64,000 nucleotides of DNA. It comes from Selenomonas sp. AB3002 (GTDB taxonomy: Bacteria > Bacillota > Negativicutes > Selenomonadales > Selenomonadaceae). The position numbers and the translations under genes are program-made. Below, in pieces: positions 45,152 to 54,715 of this stretch (position 1 is its first letter; each line of letters begins with the position of its first letter). The stretch covers positions 310,001 to 374,000 of the forward strand of contig NZ_JNIO01000008.1 in the NCBI RefSeq assembly GCF_000702545.1, written 5' to 3'. Below the pieces are notes generated by a model. The model did not search any database and was not told the origin of the DNA. It was given only the letters and a program-made list of their open reading frames with translations.

Positions 45152-45427
45152 GTGAAAGCTTTGCTATTAGGTGAAGAATTACTTGAAGTATTAGTAAGTA
45201 TGGAGTTGCTATCTGATAAGGATATAGCAAGGTTATATGCTCGGATTATAACTGGTAAAAATAGATTATCATGTGAAAGTTTGTTTAGAAAATTAATCAT
45301 ATTAAAACCAAATTCTTATGAGGCTAGAAGATGCTTGGCAGAATGTTTAATGCTGTCGTTAAAATTTAAAGAGGCTGCAAATGAATGGCAGAAAATAAAC
45401 CTTTCGAGGAGAATAATTGCGTTTTAG
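45152..45427 (+). CDS. Small TPR-like protein, probably truncated
   Basis: A 91-residue frame starting GTG 45152 (TTG 45161 possible), with AAGGGGTG upstream. The middle, SLFRKLIILKPNSYEARRCLAECLMLSLKFKEAANEWQKI, looks like two tetratricopeptide helices. The last residues run into sequence that in another frame resembles the end of an acetyltransferase, so the gene was probably fused to a relic and lost its own 3' part. AT-rich DNA begins here. It may be a fragment of the longer TPR proteins common in glycan loci. Confidence 0.4.
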   Translation: MKALLLGEELLEVLVSMELLSDKDIARLYARIITGKNRLSCESLFRKLIILKPNSYEARRCLAECLMLSLKFKEAANEWQKINLSRRIIAF

Positions 45428-45476
45428 CCTGTATTCCTGCCAGAATTGTAAAACGGGAGTGTAATTGGTCATTTTG
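45384..45476 (+). pseudogene. 3' relic of a hexapeptide-repeat acetyltransferase
   Basis: In this frame the translation contains ENNCVLACIPARIVKR, the characteristic C-terminal turn of CatB/WbbJ-type O-acetyltransferases (usually a V-A-G-x-P-A-K/R-I-I-K pattern). The catalytic coils are missing and the sequence overlaps the 3' end of the TPR-like frame. It indicates that an acetyltransferase gene was deleted here. Confidence 0.45.
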
Positions 45477-45498
45477 ATGCAGAGGAGTGCATAGAGAA

Positions 45499-47503
45499 AT
45501 GTTTTCAGCTGGGAGATATCTGTATTATAGGGGATTCTATATTGTTAAAAATGATGTAGTGTTGCCAAATTTTGATAGGTATAACATAGATGGTGAGTAT
45601 AGTCTTTTTGTACACTGTGAGCAAACGATAAAAGAAGTCAAAAATGATAAAATGAAATTATGGGTTATAGGAATATTTTACAACCTAGATGGATTTCAAT
45701 TAGAAGATGTAAAGCGATTTGAGGACTTAGAAGGGATTCTTTACAATACATGTGGGCGTTATATAATCGTAGTTTTATGTGATAAAGAGATAAGAATATA
45801 TGGCGATCCATCAAATTCAATGTCATATTGTTATTCCATAAAGAGTGATGTAGTGGCAAGTTCGTCAAAACTATGCGCCTTTTTATCAAATGATATGGAG
45901 AAGTCTGATATTGATAGGATTTATCAACAATTGGGACTAACTAAAGGGTTTGGATATATTACAAATGAAACATCTTACAAGGATGTTTTTTGGGGAATTC
46001 CTAATTTTTATTTAAATATGTTGCAGAAAAGATTAGTTAGATTTTTCCCGAATCATAAAAATCCTTTTATGGGATTGAGTATAGGCGAATGTGTTTTAGA
46101 AATACAAAAAAATATGCAAAAACAGATACACTTTTTAAAAAGTATTTGTAGTAATATAGTCATGGAGATTACAGGGGGGGGTTGATTCTAGATTTGCTCT
46201 AATTATGTGTAGTAAGTTTGCAAATCAAATAAGATTCTATACTTATGATATTAATGGTTTTTTTAAAGATGATATCACTTCAGTAAAACGGATTGTAGAT
46301 AGATACAAGTTGAACTACATAATGTATGATATTCCTACAAGTTCCTATGAAACATATAATAACTATTGGTGCTTTAGAGAAATCACTTGTATGAATAATG
46401 ATATACCACAACATATACCACAATTAGCCTATTTCTTAGCAGAAAAATTTCATGATAAAAATGCTATACGAATTTATTCAAGAATTTCTGAAATAGGTAG
46501 AGCGTATATACCTTCGTATGACTATATGGGAGATATGAGACTTGTTCATGCAGAATTGGTGCATGTTCAAAGAAAAAACAAGGATTTAATTGAAGCAATC
46601 TTATTAGATCAAAATGAGAGTTTATACAAAAAGGCTAGAGAATTTCTGTCCATACTTAACTATGATGATATAAAAAATCTTGGTTACGATGAATTGGATT
46701 TATTCTACAATGAGAGACGCATGGGGATGTGGAATGGGCAAACTTGTATCGATTTTGAAGCAGCTTTTATGAATAGTATTTCGTTGTATAATAATAGAAA
46801 AGTTATGGATATATTACAGTCTAGGCCGTTTGTAGAACGTGTGCAAAGCTGTATTTATAATATGGTGTTGGATTCTGATTCTGTGATTGGTGCAGATAAA
46901 AGGGAAAGGTTGCTTAAAAGGATAAAATTATTGATAGATAGAAGATTTTTGGACGACGCAATAATGTTACTTAATAGCAAAACTATGATGCAAGAGAAAC
47001 CTTTTATGGCATATAGAGAACTGGCAAGGTGTTATTATTGGAAGAAAGATTTCGAAAAGGCTGTACAGTTTATGGATGCGGCTATAAAGTTAAATCCTGT
47101 ATATAATCATAATCCATGGTTTGTGAGAGAGAAGTGCTGCTATTTGTATATGGGAGGTGAATATGAAAAATGTATAGAATATATTTTCTCAGTAAAGCGT
47201 GGTGCAGAGATGGATTATGTCATGTTGGCTAAATCGTACGCAAGATTGAATGATGAGAAGGCATATACATATGCAAAAAAATGCTTTGAAATAAATACTG
47301 ATAAACTGTTGCTTATACATGGATATCCAGAACAAGCAGAAATATGGAAAGACTTATTTGCAATAGTGTCAGCAAAAGAAAACGATGTAATGTTCTACAG
47401 GAAAAAATATGAAATTTATGTTAAGTCTAGAGGCATAAAGATGTACCCGTCATGGTATGGTGAAATGTTTGAGTTAAACAAGAAGGAAATGTTTATAAAA
47501 TAA
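45499..47503 (+). pseudogene. Asparagine-synthase-like protein split by a frameshift in a G8 tract
   Basis: Two frames (to 46185 and from 46205) join perfectly if one G is removed from the run at 46174-46181: the sequence then reads TGGVDSRFALIM, the PP-loop of asparagine synthetase-type amidotransferases. Before it lies a region with GRYIIVVLCDKEIRIYGDPS, like the N-terminal part of such proteins, but a class II glutaminase cysteine at position 2 is lacking. The second part (about 430 residues) ends in TPR-like repeats (AYRELARCYYWKKDFEKAVQFMDAAIKLNP). In the present phase translation stops right after the loop at 46183. It may be a phase-variable ON/OFF gene rather than a dead one. The likely role is ligase chemistry on a sugar or lipid. 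Confidence 0.75.
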
Positions 47504-47543
47504 TCATTTTTGCGAGGTGCTAATGTTATGAATAGGAGAATAA

Positions 47544-47902
47544 TTTGATGCAGCTTTCTCGTCACATTGCATAGAACATCAGGAAAATTTTATCCGTCAC
47601 CTTGACAATGTATCAAATATTCTGAATCCCCGGGGGCGTACTATCTCTGTATTCCAGACAAGAGGTATATTTTTGATCATTATAAACCAGTAACTACTTT
47701 TGGTGAATCGATAGATGAGTATATTGATTCCAGATTAAGTTTTAGAAAATATTTTAATATGATACTATCTGTTCATAATGACTGCAAACAACATTGGAAT
47801 GGATTACATGGAGATAGAAAACTTACGTCCAAAGATATTAAAGATTTATTTGAAAAGAGACAGATGTTGAATTCTCTGTGTCAGAATATTTTTCTCATGT
47901 GA
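47544..47902 (+). pseudogene. Truncated, frameshifted SAM-dependent methyltransferase
   Basis: The translated stretch reads FDAAFSSHCIEHQENFIRHL, then NILNP, and after a one-base slip at C4G5 (47628-47636) continues YYLCIPDKRYIFDHYKPVT. This is the central part of a class I methyltransferase of the type found in glycan loci (an SSH-x-IEH motif followed by GG-Y and IPDKR). The N-terminal SAM-binding half is missing and no ribosome binding site is seen. The frame ends at 47902, 22 bases before the next gene. It fills most of the gap between 47504 and 47923. Confidence 0.6.
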
Positions 47903-47923
47903 AATGAAAAAGGAGAGATGTAG

Positions 47924-49189
47924 TTGGTATCGGGGTTAGTTTCAATTATTATGCCAACTTATAATAGAGCAAGGATTATAAGTGATGCTATAAAATCTGT
48001 TTTATCGCAAGAGTATGGTGATTTTGAACTCATTATTGTAGATGATGGTTCAAAAGATAATACGGAATTAGTGGTGAGGCAGTTTAAAGATGAGCGAATT
48101 ATATATCATGCATATCATCCTAATCAAGGGGGGAATCATGCCAGAAATGTTGGATTGAGATTATCTAAAGGAGAATACATAGCTTTCCTAGATACAGATA
48201 ATAAATGGGAAAGCTCCTTTTTAACAAAACAGATTGAAACATTGAACAGGTTAAAGGCTGATTTTTGTTTTTGTAGATTAGCTATACATGAAGAACATAA
48301 AACGCAGATTGTCCCATCAGAAGCTAATGAATTATTCCATTCGGAAAGATTATTAGATAATGCAAAACTGGTGCGTGCAATGCTGGGGGGCAACCAGATA
48401 GATACTAATATTGCATGCATGAGACGTAGGTGTATTGATGAAAACCAAGGATTTAATGAAAAATTGAGACGATTGCAGGATTGGGAGTTTTTCTGCCGGG
48501 TAATATTGCCACAGAAATATAAAGTAGCATTTATACCAGAAGTGATGGTTCACAGCTTTATTCAAAAGGACAGCATAAGATATAAATATGATTTTATAGC
48601 AGGTTTTCTTTATGTGTTTGAGCTATGGATGGATTTATATAAAGCACATGATATGGTGGATGCTCAGTGTGAAAGAATTATCCGTCTTAGTATGGATTCC
48701 AAAAGAAAGATAGCCAGGCAGGATGCTTTGGTGGGGTTATTAAGACTGGTATCAGAGGATACTATTAAGCGTGCTATTAAGAAACTTAAACTGAAGTCAT
48801 ATAATCTTGAGAAAGCTAAAAAAATCGTATGCAATTCTGTATGCATTGGGCAATATCAATCTATTCTTAGTATTATCGAGGGTAAAAACTTGATTATTTA
48901 TACTGATGATGATTCTTTGCAATCAAAACTTCCAGCAGTAGATAAGATGTTTTTGAATCACGTAAACTTTATTGCGTGTGATGATATAGAAAATGTTAAA
49001 GGGGTGGAGAATGGTATACCAGTTATTCACTCGTCATATTTAGAGGAGGGAATTTCTAAAATGTTTATCATGATTTTAGGTAACTCAAACTTCGCACAAG
49101 AGAAACAGGCCAGCACCTATGTGCGGTGTAGAGCCATGACTCCTAGAAAGTCTGCCTCATGCACAGCGTTTCAAACACTTGTTCCATAA
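47924..49189 (+). pseudogene. Family 2 glycosyltransferase interrupted at its 3' end by an IS element
   Basis: The TTG start follows AAGGAGAG. Residues 1-230 are a GT-A domain: VSIIMPTYNRARIISDAIKSVL, VDDGSKDN, GGNHARNVGL and the FLDTDN DxD-like motif. The C-terminal part (about 300 onward) is another copy of the cluster's Rossmann-like accessory unit (NLIIYTDDDSLQSKL). At 49082 the gene enters an IS element and the frame runs on to 49189 in IS sequence. Rejoining 49082 to 50668 restores the ending GNYNEHKKYIESLGYVENVDF, so the intact protein would be about 416 residues. The catalytic domain is intact, so the truncated protein could still be active. Confidence 0.8.
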
Positions 49190-50661
49190 ATTCGGCAGAT
49201 TTTCCAAGAACAAATCGAGCATCATGTCCAGTTCCTTTTCCATAAAAAACGTCTTTCCCTTTACCGTAGCAATAAGTTCTTTCAAGAGCAACACCAAGGC
49301 ATCGAGATAACGCAGATCCTGCAATTCGTCATAAGCGAGATAGAATAGCTCACCTATGCTCCGTTTATCGACATTCCGGCGCTGCTCTAGTGACAACATC
49401 ATATACCTTGCAAATACAACGGATACATGTGATGTCATTGCATCATAAGACAGAGCGTGGCTTTCTTTCCCAAGTTTCAGGAATGACTTGCATATCTTGA
49501 AGAAAACCTCGATATTCCAGCGCTTTCCATAAGTCTGGATGATGTCTTCCTCAGACAAACAGGTATCTGTGGATACCAAGATTAGATAGTCCTTGGGGTT
49601 GCTTCTGTTCCTAACGAAAACGAGTTTGACTGGCAGAGTTTTTCCTTCCTTTACCACCGCCGCCTCTACTGAAAGCAGATACTTTGAGCAACCAGGACGC
49701 TTTTTAGACTGGCGAAAGATTGCCATTACACTCTTCATGCGTTCGTCATGAAGGAAATGACTGTTTTCAGACTTTTTTACCATAGCAATGGCATCGAAGC
49801 CGAGTTCCTTGACTTGAACAAGGGAAGACGGTGAACAGAACCAGGTGTCAAAAAGAACGTAGCGGGCTGGAATCTCCATAGATTTTGCCTCAGCCAAGAG
49901 CTTCTGCATAACAACGGTAGCCTTAGTCTGTGCCAGCTTGCGCTGTTTCCCGCCGTTGCTACGCGAGTCGATCTTATCCGAAGACTCCTGCAGCCGATTG
50001 ACACGATTGGCAGATGAAAGCAGACAGTGGCTGAGTGGCAGAAACGAATTCCCATCACTCCAGCCGAGAGTCAGCATGCGGAACCCCCGCGTATACTTGT
50101 GCTCGACGTGGTCAAACACCTTGGCAAGCAGCTCCACATTCTTGGAACGTGCCCTGCTTAACAAGGAGTCATCGATGATAAGCACGTTGCGCCGGTTTTC
50201 ATTGGTAAGAGGTACAATTTTTTGAATGATGGATTTACCAAGCTGCAGAGTGAATTTGCGCCAGTTGACACAACTGGAATTCATGAAACGGTAAAAGGTA
50301 TCTTTAGCAAAGGGAATAACAGATGAATCCATCTTTTCCTGCTGATAAAAGGACTTGTTGCGAAAGGCATTCTCGAACGCAACCTTAAACACATTGCTTA
50401 CAGAGAAACCGCGAACCTTATAGGCATTGCAGGCCTTGAGTATCTTGCCAACATGGAATTCTTCCAGGAAACAAGATATTTTTGAAGAAAGTTGTTCACC
50501 AAAGATATGATTCTGTGATACAATGTTCATGGCATAAGCCCTCCGTTTATGTTATGATTGCTGTCACTTTCATTATACAAAACGGAGAGAGCTTATGCTA
50601 TTTTTTTAGGAAATGGTACAAGTCGAATAATTTGGCAGTTTCACAACTGCGAAGTTTGAGT
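49083..50661. mobile_element. Complete IS4-family insertion sequence with target duplication
   Basis: The 1579-base element has terminal inverted repeats beginning ACTCAAACTTCGCA on both ends (14 identical bases, then partial identity to about 24). The flanks show a 6-base direct repeat, TAGGTA, at 49077-49082 and 50662-50667. It carries one transposase gene on the minus strand. It inserted into the GT2 gene, whose reading frame is restored by removing the element and one copy of the repeat. Confidence 0.93.
49157..50530 (-). CDS. IS4-family DDE transposase
   Basis: A 457-residue transposase. The first catalytic aspartate is in VLIIDDSLLSR, the second in YVLFDTWFCSP, and the glutamate lies in the IS4 signature Y-(2)-R-(3)-E-(6)-K, here YGKRWNIEVFFKICK. 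A beta-strand insertion between the second aspartate and the glutamate is present, as is usual for this family. The ATG at 50530 has GGAGGG eight bases upstream. The frame is intact, so the element may be active. It is oriented opposite to the gene it interrupts. Confidence 0.95.
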   Translation of the reverse strand: MNIVSQNHIFGEQLSSKISCFLEEFHVGKILKACNAYKVRGFSVSNVFKVAFENAFRNKSFYQQEKMDSSVIPFAKDTFYRFMNSSCVNWRKFTLQLGKSIIQKIVPLTNENRRNVLIIDDSLLSRARSKNVELLAKVFDHVEHKYTRGFRMLTLGWSDGNSFLPLSHCLLSSANRVNRLQESSDKIDSRSNGGKQRKLAQTKATVVMQKLLAEAKSMEIPARYVLFDTWFCSPSSLVQVKELGFDAIAMVKKSENSHFLHDERMKSVMAIFRQSKKRPGCSKYLLSVEAAVVKEGKTLPVKLVFVRNRSNPKDYLILVSTDTCLSEEDIIQTYGKRWNIEVFFKICKSFLKLGKESHALSYDAMTSHVSVVFARYMMLSLEQRRNVDKRSIGELFYLAYDELQDLRYLDALVLLLKELIATVKGKTFFMEKELDMMLDLFLENLPNLWNKCLKRCA

Positions 50662-50790: not shown

Positions 50791-51066
50791 ATGCTCTTGG
50801 CAAATACAGAATTCAAGTGGGAAAAAGGGAAGATAGGCAATACATCTATCGGTAGATGTTCTTATGGATATGAAGCTTTCTTGAAGCCCTTTGGATTTAA
50901 CTGTAAATCCATTGGTAGCTTTTGCTCTATTGCCAATGGAGTTTCAGTGCTTGATAATCATCCATTTATGGTGACAACTTCACCATTTCTTGATCTAGGG
51001 GCACCATTTAGTGATGGTGAGGCTGAGTTTTCCAAGTACTATTGTACATGTGAAACATCAAACTGA
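50791..51066 (+). pseudogene. 5' part of a CatB/WbbJ-type O-acetyltransferase
   Basis: A 91-residue frame with NTSIGRCSYGYEAF, FNCKSIGSFCSIANGVSVLDNHP, typical of the first left-handed helix coils of xenobiotic/virginiamycin-type acetyltransferases. The catalytic histidine would be that in DNHP. The expected second half (IGNDVWIG coils and the PAK-I-I end) is missing: the frame ends inside the 147-base direct repeat. It likely lost its 3' half through recombination at that repeat. A short ribosome binding site (GGTGAATG) precedes the start. It could also encode a non-functional short protein. Confidence 0.6.
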
Positions 51067-51179: not shown

Positions 51180-51252
51180 AAATAATAGAGAGTGGGAACA
51201 TTTCATCGTAATAGAGTAAAGGGGAATGTGCTCTGAGGAGGTTTTAATAATT

Positions 51253-53349
51253 ATGGAAGCTGTCTTTGAACATGAGATGGCAGTGGTTGCTATTCTAAAA
51301 AATGAAGGGAATTATATAAAGGAGTGGCTTGACTATCATATGTCAGCTGGGGTTACCAAATTTTATTTATATGATAACGAGAGCGAGGATAATCTTAAGA
51401 ATGTTTTACAACCTTATATTGATGCACAGATTGTGGATTACATGTATTGGCCTGGCACTTGTATGCAGCTAAAGGTTTATAATGATGCTCTCAAAAAACA
51501 TCGCTTTGACTGTCGTTATATGGCGTTTATAGATGCTGATGAGTTTATATTTCCTAAAGATAGAAGAACAATACCTGAAGTAATTGGCTCAATAATGTCA
51601 CTGGATCCTCTTGCGGGAGGAGTGGTAATAAATTGGCGTGTATTTGGTTCTTCTGGTCAGGAAAAAAAGAATTTAGATTTAGGTGTTATAGAAAGATTTA
51701 GGTTTCGCGCAAAAGATGATTTTGGTCCTAATACACATATTAAAAGTATTGTAAATCCAAGACGTGTTGAAAATGTAGTGCATGTACATTATGCTGATTA
51801 TCTTACGGGAATGTATGCAATTGATGAGCATGGCAATAAAGTGGTGTTGTCTGCATTTAATGGAAAAAATACGGTTGATCGTATATGTATAAATCATTAT
51901 TTTGTTAAATCAAGGGAGGAGTGGTTACAAAAGAGATCTAGAGGTACGGCTGATACTGGCAGAGTACGTTCTATGAAAGACTTTGAAAATCATGATAAAA
52001 ATGATGTTTATGACGATGGCATTTTAAACTATTATAAATTGCGGAAAGTCGACAAAAGGAAACATGGCAATTCTAAACAGGTAGTTTCCTTGGCTTTGAA
52101 TAAAATACGAGATTATTTAGAAGGGGAATCTGTTTTTTCTGAAAATGTAAATGCGGAAGTGATTTTGTCTTATTGGTATTTGTGTAAAAAGTATTATTTA
52201 AAGTTACTAGAGTATGATGAAGAAGAAATAATAGAGTTTTTTGTTGGAATTTTGGAATGCAGGGATGTTGGGGAAGTAAATGAGTGGGAATTTAGATTGT
52301 TGCAGAACTGTCTGCCTGATTTCTTTAGTTTTATCAAAAAGGATATAGATAAAAGAAATGCAATGCAATATATATTGTGGAAATTAGGGGGAGATATTGC
52401 AAAAATAGCTACAAAGAAAAATGTAAATTTACTAAAAACATATCATGACACAAGGGTTTATATTAATGCCAAAGGTAAACTTTATCATAATGGGATAAAC
52501 GATGACGAGAAATTTGATCATGGATTGCCAGTATATGCTTCCCTGGTAGCTCACGGTATGTATATTTTTTTTGTTGAATTGGAAGATTGTATGATGTATA
52601 TAAGTGAATTCGATAAAGGCGGGAGTGCAAAGCTATCTATATTACCACAGCTTTTTCGAGTAGAAGAAAATAAAAATGGAACAATTTCAATACATCAGAA
52701 TAATGGTTTTGTATCTGCTATTAGTAATGGATGGTTTCGCATTCAACCACACAATCGAGAATGGGAGCAGTTTTTTTTAGAACCTTCAGTTATGAACATT
52801 AATATCGGGCGTTTTGGTTTTAGGGAAATCCTAAAATTAGGTCCCCAAAAAGAGATGGTTAATAATGGACTTTTTTGCAGGAGAAAAAAAGAAAGGATTG
52901 AACATAAAGTTTTTCGTGATTTATGCACAGCTAGAGTAGATATAAAAAGTTGTGGTAGAAACTGTGGAGTGGAAGTAAAAAATATGTTGACAGATGTCAC
53001 TTTGAATCTGGAAAAACAAACGCCTGTAAATATAGATAGTAAAACTGTGGTGGTACAAAGTATTATAGGCGTGATGAAACTATCAGTTGGTTGCATCGGT
53101 GCAGGGATTTTGAACATAGAACTTAGAGGGCTATTACGTCTTAATAAAGATGGAAAAAGTCTTCCTTACTGGATTACTTATACATCTGTGCGTGCAAATG
53201 ATAATAGCATCTTACCTAGAGCGATGGACGTATGTTATGATAGTCCAATAATATTAAAAAAAGAAGTACAAGATGGAGAGACGTTAATATTAGATATAAA
53301 TTGGCAACCTTGCATGAAATCTGTAAAAGATCTTATGTTAGTGGAATAA
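51253..53349 (+). CDS. Glycosyltransferase family 92 (DUF23-like) protein
   Basis: About 698 residues from ATG 51253, placed 11 bases after GAGGAGG (51235-51241); ATG 51226 would put that site inside the gene. The N-terminal ~270 residues show the GT92/DUF23 layout: VAILKNEGNYIKEWLDYHMSAGV, FYLYDNESEDN, the YMAFIDADEFIF DxD motif, and FGSSG then HVHYADYLTG. The middle is helical; the last ~300 residues are beta-rich (DTRVYINAKGKLYHNG and DINWQPCMK) and could be a carbohydrate-binding or acceptor domain. AT-rich compared with flanking housekeeping genes. It lies between the two copies of a direct repeat. Confidence 0.8.
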   Translation: MEAVFEHEMAVVAILKNEGNYIKEWLDYHMSAGVTKFYLYDNESEDNLKNVLQPYIDAQIVDYMYWPGTCMQLKVYNDALKKHRFDCRYMAFIDADEFIFPKDRRTIPEVIGSIMSLDPLAGGVVINWRVFGSSGQEKKNLDLGVIERFRFRAKDDFGPNTHIKSIVNPRRVENVVHVHYADYLTGMYAIDEHGNKVVLSAFNGKNTVDRICINHYFVKSREEWLQKRSRGTADTGRVRSMKDFENHDKNDVYDDGILNYYKLRKVDKRKHGNSKQVVSLALNKIRDYLEGESVFSENVNAEVILSYWYLCKKYYLKLLEYDEEEIIEFFVGILECRDVGEVNEWEFRLLQNCLPDFFSFIKKDIDKRNAMQYILWKLGGDIAKIATKKNVNLLKTYHDTRVYINAKGKLYHNGINDDEKFDHGLPVYASLVAHGMYIFFVELEDCMMYISEFDKGGSAKLSILPQLFRVEENKNGTISIHQNNGFVSAISNGWFRIQPHNREWEQFFLEPSVMNINIGRFGFREILKLGPQKEMVNNGLFCRRKKERIEHKVFRDLCTARVDIKSCGRNCGVEVKNMLTDVTLNLEKQTPVNIDSKTVVVQSIIGVMKLSVGCIGAGILNIELRGLLRLNKDGKSLPYWITYTSVRANDNSILPRAMDVCYDSPIILKKEVQDGETLILDINWQPCMKSVKDLMLVE

Positions 53350-53638: not shown

Positions 53639-54715
53639 ATGAATGTTTTGGTTATAGGCAATGGATTTGATTTGGCACATAAATTACCTACATCTTATGT
53701 AGATTTCATGAACTATTTGGATTTTTGTAATGCTGTTAATATAAATCGAGATATTCTTAAATATATAAGTCATGGTGATGATGAAAATAGGATATGGCAA
53801 ACTTTAAACCCAAAACTTAAAACATTGATTTTAAATCATTTAAATGTAGAAAAAAGTGAGGAGCTTTTACCACCTAGTATTATAGAGCTTATGAACCAAG
53901 ATAATTGTTGGTATAAATATTTTGATTACGAGATAAAACACAACAAATTTGCAAAGAAAAACTGGGTTGATTTTGAGGCAAAAATTGCCGTTGTTGTGAG
54001 ATGCTTAGAAGGAATAATTCAAGGTGAAAAGGTGGCGAAATATAGAAATAATGATAAAGCTTCAATTTTAACATTACTGGCTAATGGAACAATTAGTGGT
54101 TTTGAAAATGAGAATGAATATATAGAGTATATTCGCAAAGACTTAGACCTGTTTATCAAGTGCTTAGATAAGTATATAACGATAGTTGATAAAATTAAAT
54201 TGTCGGAAAGCGAAAAAATAAGCTGTGTTGAAAATATTGATGTTGATAAACTGGTAAGTTTTAATTATACAGAAACTTATTCTAAACTATATAAAAATAT
54301 TGAGAGAGATTGCATTGATTACGCACATGGCAAGGCAGGAGAAGCGGATAAAGGAGATATAAGTAACTTGGTGTTAGGTTGTGAAGAAACCTTGAAGGGA
54401 GATTGGAGGAGTATTGTTACACAGTGCGGATATTTTAAAAAGTATTTACAGAGGGATGTAAAGGGGACTGGACGTAATTATAGGAATTATTATAGAGAAG
54501 GTAAGAGCGAGAAAAACGTTTTGTATATTTTTGGCCATTCGCTTGATATAAATGATGGAGATATTATCAAATACATGATTGATAAAAGTGATAAAGTTGT
54601 TATTTTTTATTGGAATGTTGATGATGTGATTAATAAAGCTCAAAATCTTGTTCGTATTATGAGTAAGGAAGGCTATGAAAATGCCAGATGGAAAATAGAA
54701 TTTAGAAGGCAGTAG
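53639..54715 (+). CDS. abiH: AbiH family abortive-infection protein
   Basis: A 358-residue protein. The N-terminal MNVLVIGNGFDLAHKLPTSYVDFM is the diagnostic AbiH signature, with a further VSFNYTETY near 220 and YIFGHSLDINDGD near 305. AbiH proteins are single-gene phage-defence factors that reduce phage production by an incompletely known abortive mechanism; the fold resembles SIR2-like NAD-binding proteins. An AGAAGGAGGG ribosome binding site precedes ATG 53639. The AT-rich composition and the direct repeat in front suggest horizontal arrival inside the glycan locus. No second defence gene is adjacent. Confidence 0.9.
   Translation: MNVLVIGNGFDLAHKLPTSYVDFMNYLDFCNAVNINRDILKYISHGDDENRIWQTLNPKLKTLILNHLNVEKSEELLPPSIIELMNQDNCWYKYFDYEIKHNKFAKKNWVDFEAKIAVVVRCLEGIIQGEKVAKYRNNDKASILTLLANGTISGFENENEYIEYIRKDLDLFIKCLDKYITIVDKIKLSESEKISCVENIDVDKLVSFNYTETYSKLYKNIERDCIDYAHGKAGEADKGDISNLVLGCEETLKGDWRSIVTQCGYFKKYLQRDVKGTGRNYRNYYREGKSEKNVLYIFGHSLDINDGDIIKYMIDKSDKVVIFYWNVDDVINKAQNLVRIMSKEGYENARWKIEFRRQ

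Follow-up and report, generated by a model that had tools for sequence, protein, structure and literature searches.

A run of eight G residues that falls within the codons of a catalytic loop, and there divides a putative surface-glycan gene into two reading frames, raises the question of whether the gene carries a switch or has merely been broken. The run is the only G8 on either strand of the window, by which we mean the whole 64,000-nucleotide stretch of the Selenomonas sp. AB3002 genome that was analysed, and it lies where two adjacent frames meet, as the preliminary description had it. The features of the gene are as follows.

45482 to 45487, plus strand: GAGGAG, a Shine-Dalgarno-like sequence 11 nt before the ATG at 45499
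45499 to 46185, plus strand: N-terminal frame of the AsnB-like gene, holding the N-terminal domain up to the PP-loop, with homology over the N-terminal half to the G073 paralogs described below and to homologs L196 and L197
46168 to 46192, plus strand: codons of the PP-loop motif ITGGVDSR, interrupted by a surplus G
46174 to 46181, plus strand: G8 homopolymer, the junction of both frames
46181 to 47503, plus strand: C-terminal frame of the AsnB-like gene, from the PP-loop Val onward, with the synthetase domain and a TPR-like C-terminus

The junction reads ATT ACA GGGGGGGG TTGATTCTAGA. The first frame, which starts at ATG 45499 or at GTG 45487, ends at a TGA (46183-46185) directly after the tract, whereas the second is open from just before the tract, runs through it, and continues for 440 codons from 46181 to a TAA at 47501-47503. 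With one G fewer the run supplies both glycine codons of the PP-loop and the opening base of the Val codon that follows, and the in silico product is a stop-free read-through protein of 667 residues that contains ITGGVDSR. The anticipated fusion of the frames by a G7 into a protein of some 670 residues, the restoration of the TGGVDSR loop, and the truncation just after the loop in the phase of the window are all borne out. No second lesion is visible in the gene besides the surplus G, and the two halves agree in codon-position GC (upstream and downstream GC1 0.36 and 0.36, GC2 0.28 and 0.28, GC3 0.25 and 0.29); by this measure no decay is apparent downstream of the break. Two marks of a poly-G phase-variable gene are present, namely a run of at least 7-8 G within a reading frame and a one-base change that, in silico, toggles between truncated and full-length products.

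Homology confirms that the two frames belong together. In tblastn searches the read-through protein aligned with WP_193958546.1 of E. coli plasmid pCE1537-B, annotated as asparagine synthase-related (query 72-452, 24% identity, E 8e-11), and with QCC61358.1 of Natrinema (query 8-458, 20% identity, E 3e-16). Both are encoded in a single uninterrupted frame and align across the junction, where an unbroken [ST][GA]GxDSR crosses the point of the break, and the two window frames are therefore one gene. ITGGVDSR, which conforms to the PP-loop pattern [ST]GGxDS, aligns with SGGLDSR in L196 and TAGLDSR in L197. Unlike the window gene, the E. coli and Natrinema genes have neither a G-run nor a TPR tail. 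They also sit in polysaccharide clusters, the former with wecB/wecC and glycosyltransferases and the latter with a flippase and dTDP-rhamnose genes. The asparagine-synthase-like identity of the window gene was sustained, and its homologs do belong to surface-glycan clusters.

By sequence the window protein is a divergent relative of the AsnB superfamily rather than a curated member. The read-through did not match PF00733, the curated profile of the superfamily, its sole curated family match is a weak TPR, and homolog L196 scored 1.5e-7 against TIGR01536, below the cut-off. Modelled on its own, the protein gave a pLDDT of 37.5, too poor for fold assignment, whereas a model of its 743-aa-type relatives built from 32 sequences reached 86.8 and matched, in Foldseek against the PDB, TsnB9, carbapenam synthetase, beta-lactam synthetase and asparagine synthetase B. 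Three of these 32 members reached Pfam Asn_synthase marginally, and a PDB sequence search using family profiles found nothing useful. The window protein starts MFSAGRY or MHREMFS and has no Cys at position 2, i.e. the N-terminal catalytic Cys of glutamine-dependent AsnB members is absent; the protein therefore probably has no glutaminase half and is more likely an amide ligase that draws on ammonia or an amine. A tested analogue comes from P. gingivalis, where the AsnB-like WbpS/PGN_1234 is required for a sugar uronamide (PMC7468200). Likened to it by description, the window protein is also AsnB-like and putatively of a surface-sugar pathway, and amide formation on a sugar acid is plausible by analogy, but it lacks the Cys that would serve the glutaminase of a WbpS-type sugar amidotransferase. 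In the G8 state the PP-loop would be destroyed and the synthetase domain not made, and the modification would be absent.

Our verdict is that a frameshift, presumably caused by slippage, has left this AsnB-like gene OFF in the sequenced genome. An amide ligase of the superfamily, belonging to a surface-glycan locus, would have been put out of frame by the slipped-strand gain of one G in the codons for the PP-loop glycines. Because a stop codon directly follows the tract, no ATP-pyrophosphatase domain would be made, and since a further slip that removed one G from the run would bring the enzyme back, the most likely behaviour under this mechanism is that of a low-frequency reversible on/off locus; reversal at a useful rate and a glycan phenotype are steps that we infer. 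The break coincides exactly with the homopolymer, the rest of the gene is intact, and the homologs are unbroken there, all of which supports a switch. From the sequence, a maintained on/off switch is plausible, and we hold to it tentatively. The tract could also act through recoding, in which transcriptional slippage or ribosomal frameshifting on the run would yield some full-length enzyme from the G8 allele. G-runs are slippery and the gene is otherwise well kept; however, the shift needed is +1 where the common one is -1, and the homologs have no run at this point, which makes recoding very improbable.

The length of the run has to be read against its genome (3.67 Mb in 8 contigs, 99.8% complete), for which a background was derived from pattern searches and fetched stretches. 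The genome holds 128 G7, 27 G8, 6 G9, one G10 and one G11 runs (35 of G8 or longer), with counts that drop smoothly by about four- to fivefold per added base and no excess of long runs. The window G8 does not stand out from this background, a property that would support a switch without strictly defining one, and since dinucleotide-shuffled versions of the window hold a mean of 4.2 G8 runs, a G8 as such is not unusual. Long ORFs contain 22 runs of at least eight, and 20 of these are in frame (19 G8 or G9 on the G strand and one on the C strand), in genes that include dxs (1-deoxyxylulose-phosphate synthase), a HisA-type histidine biosynthesis protein, MreC, a HemN/HemW-type radical SAM protein, a CobT-type phosphoribosyltransferase and a polyprenyl synthase. 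Because G8 runs sit in frame in housekeeping genes, a G8 alone is no sign of a contingency locus here, and after the genome-wide count it was dropped as evidence of a switch in itself. The window run is also partly forced by coding, as GGG GGG GTT spells Gly-Gly-Val; other glycines of the protein use GGG in 6 of 27 cases.

What does stand out is a run placed exactly where the frame of a gene breaks. Each of the two remaining runs in long ORFs splits an AsnB-like gene, one the window gene and the other a second gene at C8:171625-173872. In a sample of 30 G7 runs there was no such split. That both splits should fall in both AsnB-like genes among 22 has a chance of 1/231, or 1/21 given the window gene, a calculation made post hoc. 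A supposed third split gene (C8:2043368) proved to be an ordinary junction between two different genes, and a run first taken as non-coding (L007) is a real in-frame case, since a window paralog aligns with it over 13-429. Two similar intergenic G8 runs (C8:307189 and C8:1513871), each made up of TTGC or a TTGC-like sequence, G8 and ACTCTT, lie shortly upstream of genes and may serve as promoter elements or belong to a repeat.

The same counts bear on whether the homopolymer was miscalled in sequencing or assembly, leaving an intact gene. Homopolymers are the usual site of such errors. Against this, the in-frame runs indicate a low error rate, from which we argue that miscalls are rare in this assembly, and an error would show no preference for AsnB-like genes; a miscall is accordingly improbable.

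The second AsnB-like gene (C8:171625-173872, equivalent to L067:11625-13872) is split at a G9 (C8:173324-173332) and is followed by an intact tandem 743-aa paralog with its C-terminal module in frame. Its ortholog in the sister Selenomonas sp. RGIG9219 carries a G8 at the same point, in frame. The run has been kept there despite a DNA identity of 73% and divergence of the sequence just upstream. The window gene resembles this pair in being AsnB-like, in lying in a glycan cluster of the same genus, and in being split by a G-run; the pair itself contrasts a split G9 with an in-frame G8. It differs in that the tract of the second gene lies in a linker, near residue 565, before a C-terminal module, so that the synthetase domain is intact when out of frame, and in that the second gene is of a different subfamily with no TPR tail. 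The second gene is a better candidate for phase variation than the window run. The C-terminal module of the protein at L067:13903-16131, about 145 residues (ARIDIKN...WHDKP...), recurs in many glycan-locus proteins of the bacterial family, in up to several copies per protein, and has a weak fold match to CBM35 carbohydrate-binding modules; the product of window positions 51226-53349 ends in a tail resembling it.

The window gene lies in a low-GC island, with 31% GC against about 52%, among the following features.

45152 to 45427, plus strand: upstream orphan ORF of 91 aa, no Pfam match
near 45390 to 45470, in another frame than the orphan ORF: acyltransferase-like tail (CVLACIPARIVKRE), recognized by eye
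47520 to 47920, plus strand: methyltransferase remnant with stops and a frameshift near 47631, weak match to Methyltransf_11 (E 0.0025)
47924 to 49189, plus strand: family-2 glycosyltransferase, C-terminus broken by an insertion sequence
49157 to 50530, minus strand: DDE transposase of the insertion sequence
50791 to 51066, plus strand: acetyltransferase-like fragment with a broken C-terminus, recognized by eye, no Pfam match

The orphan ORF and the acyltransferase-like tail are probably gene remnants. An AbiH-type abortive infection protein (53639-54715) adjoins the glycan locus.

Searches for the window gene elsewhere gave little. Exact peptide patterns of the protein found no relative in genome contigs, five other genomes of the genus held no ortholog, and a class-wide genome search returned only G073, a genome of the Quinella clade. 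Viral contigs and phages gave no match to the protein, and an exact-flank search of viral contigs found no other tract lengths.

Given that the genus genomes searched hold no ortholog, that the island has 31% GC, and that the flanks are decayed or broken by an insertion sequence, one slip in a gene that the cell can do without is a serious rival to the maintained switch. The gene would then be a non-essential one, acquired horizontally, whose longest homopolymer slipped by chance, and it would be starting to decay into a pseudogene within a mosaic glycan locus. That the Gly-Gly-Val coding accounts for the run, and that G8 runs are background in this genome, also speaks for such an inactivation, but the gene is otherwise undamaged, and the only other G-run-split gene of the genome is likewise AsnB-like, with its tract kept in a sister species. 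Taking these together we regard a one-off loss as a real possibility, though on balance a somewhat doubtful one. One genome cannot tell a maintained switch from a single recent mutation.

Relatives also bear on the case for switching. Of 189 genomes of the bacterial family, 20 encode the 743-aa-type protein; they belong to two genera, Selenomonas and the Quinella clade, the latter with records named Quinella sp., Selenomonadaceae bacterium or Selenomonadales bacterium. Among the genes fetched from the Quinella clade, 12 carry tracts of G8 to G14 at one linker near residue 470. Six of these tracts are in frame and six are out of frame, and most of the out-of-frame readings stop within a few codons. 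Mapped onto the model of a relative that has no tract, the tract sites of these relatives lie in low-confidence linkers. Most tract-bearing relatives are MAGs, and the lengths given are therefore consensus lengths. A single conserved site that occurs in many lengths and in both phases, as read from these sequences, is the pattern that contingency loci display, and on the same footing the AsnB-like family as a recurrent poly-G target in rumen Selenomonadaceae is well supported. A homolog in a Spirochaetales MAG from water deer caecum (L154:2335-4492) is split at a G11 near residue 55. Other homologs of the 743-aa type occur in Methanobrevibacter and Methanosphaera, in Alphaproteobacteria and in Blautia. 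Many come from rumen or gut samples, and their scatter over bacterial phyla and methanogens suggests that a surface-glycan gene has spread horizontally.

Within the bacterial family the closest relatives of the window protein are three AsnB-like paralogs in G073 (24-30% identity), each of which is also split by a G-run. In these paralogs, unlike the window gene, the split falls at a G12-13 some 35 residues ahead of the PP-loop, whose codons are mixed and free of runs. G073, a rumen bacterium, has 282 overlapping G10 matches in 2.4 Mb, an estimated 100 or so separate G10 runs and far above most of the bacterial family; among 12 runs inspected, three split a gene and two were in frame, several lying in GT8-like glycosyltransferases. 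By sequence this looks like a large poly-G phase-variation repertoire.

The window run coincides with none of the tract sites of its relatives. In some 20 PP-loops of relatives the Gly codons are mixed and never form a run of seven or longer, so that a run at the same site, a supporting rather than a strictly defining property, was not found. The run would count seven in the ON phase, whereas the tracts of relatives count 8-14, and an in-phase three-base change within the catalytic loop, by which the loop would gain or lose a glycine, is unlikely to be tolerated, so a tract there cannot grow as linker tracts can. To call this the classic layout of a contingency locus was an overstatement, given the in-frame G8 runs in essential genes, a run partly forced by coding and a site that relatives have not kept. 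What stands of the proposed poly-G switch is a frameshift exactly at a homopolymer, in a wider AsnB-like family with switch-like tracts that vary in length and phase; against it, the window tract differs from those of relatives in site and length, and its length is that of the genome background.

Poly-G phase variation is best described in pathogens, e.g. Campylobacter, Helicobacter and Neisseria. The window gene resembles the poly-G/C contingency loci of Campylobacter jejuni in that a G-run lies in a surface-glycan gene and a one-base change, here in silico, toggles full-length and truncated products. A published cut-off for such tracts is at least 7 G/C, within which the window run falls, and for C. 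jejuni NCTC 11168 variability was reported for all tracts of at least 8 (PMC6321876). Unlike the C. jejuni loci, the window run lies in a catalytic PP-loop, is short in the ON phase, and is read from one genome, and this Selenomonas has no genome-wide set of long poly-G runs.

The tract sites described above, at the Quinella-clade linker near residue 470, the Selenomonas linker near residue 565, a position near residue 55 in a Spirochaetales homolog and the pre-PP-loop position in the Quinella clade, may be read together with the window run. AsnB-like sugar ligases of rumen microbes would then have gained poly-G switches independently at several sites, the window variant using the catalytic loop itself for an all-or-nothing enzyme, a reading that we think possible but doubt.

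Our literature searches found no paper linking Quinella with phase variation and none on AsnB-like genes under poly-G control. A G8 run by itself is weak evidence, because essential genes of this genome also contain such runs in frame. Across Selenomonas and the Quinella clade, AsnB-like glycan ligases emerge as a recurrent poly-G target in rumen Selenomonadaceae, which the literature searched does not report. If this is true, commensal rumen bacteria would randomise a surface-sugar amide, plausibly as a defence against phages or protozoal grazing.
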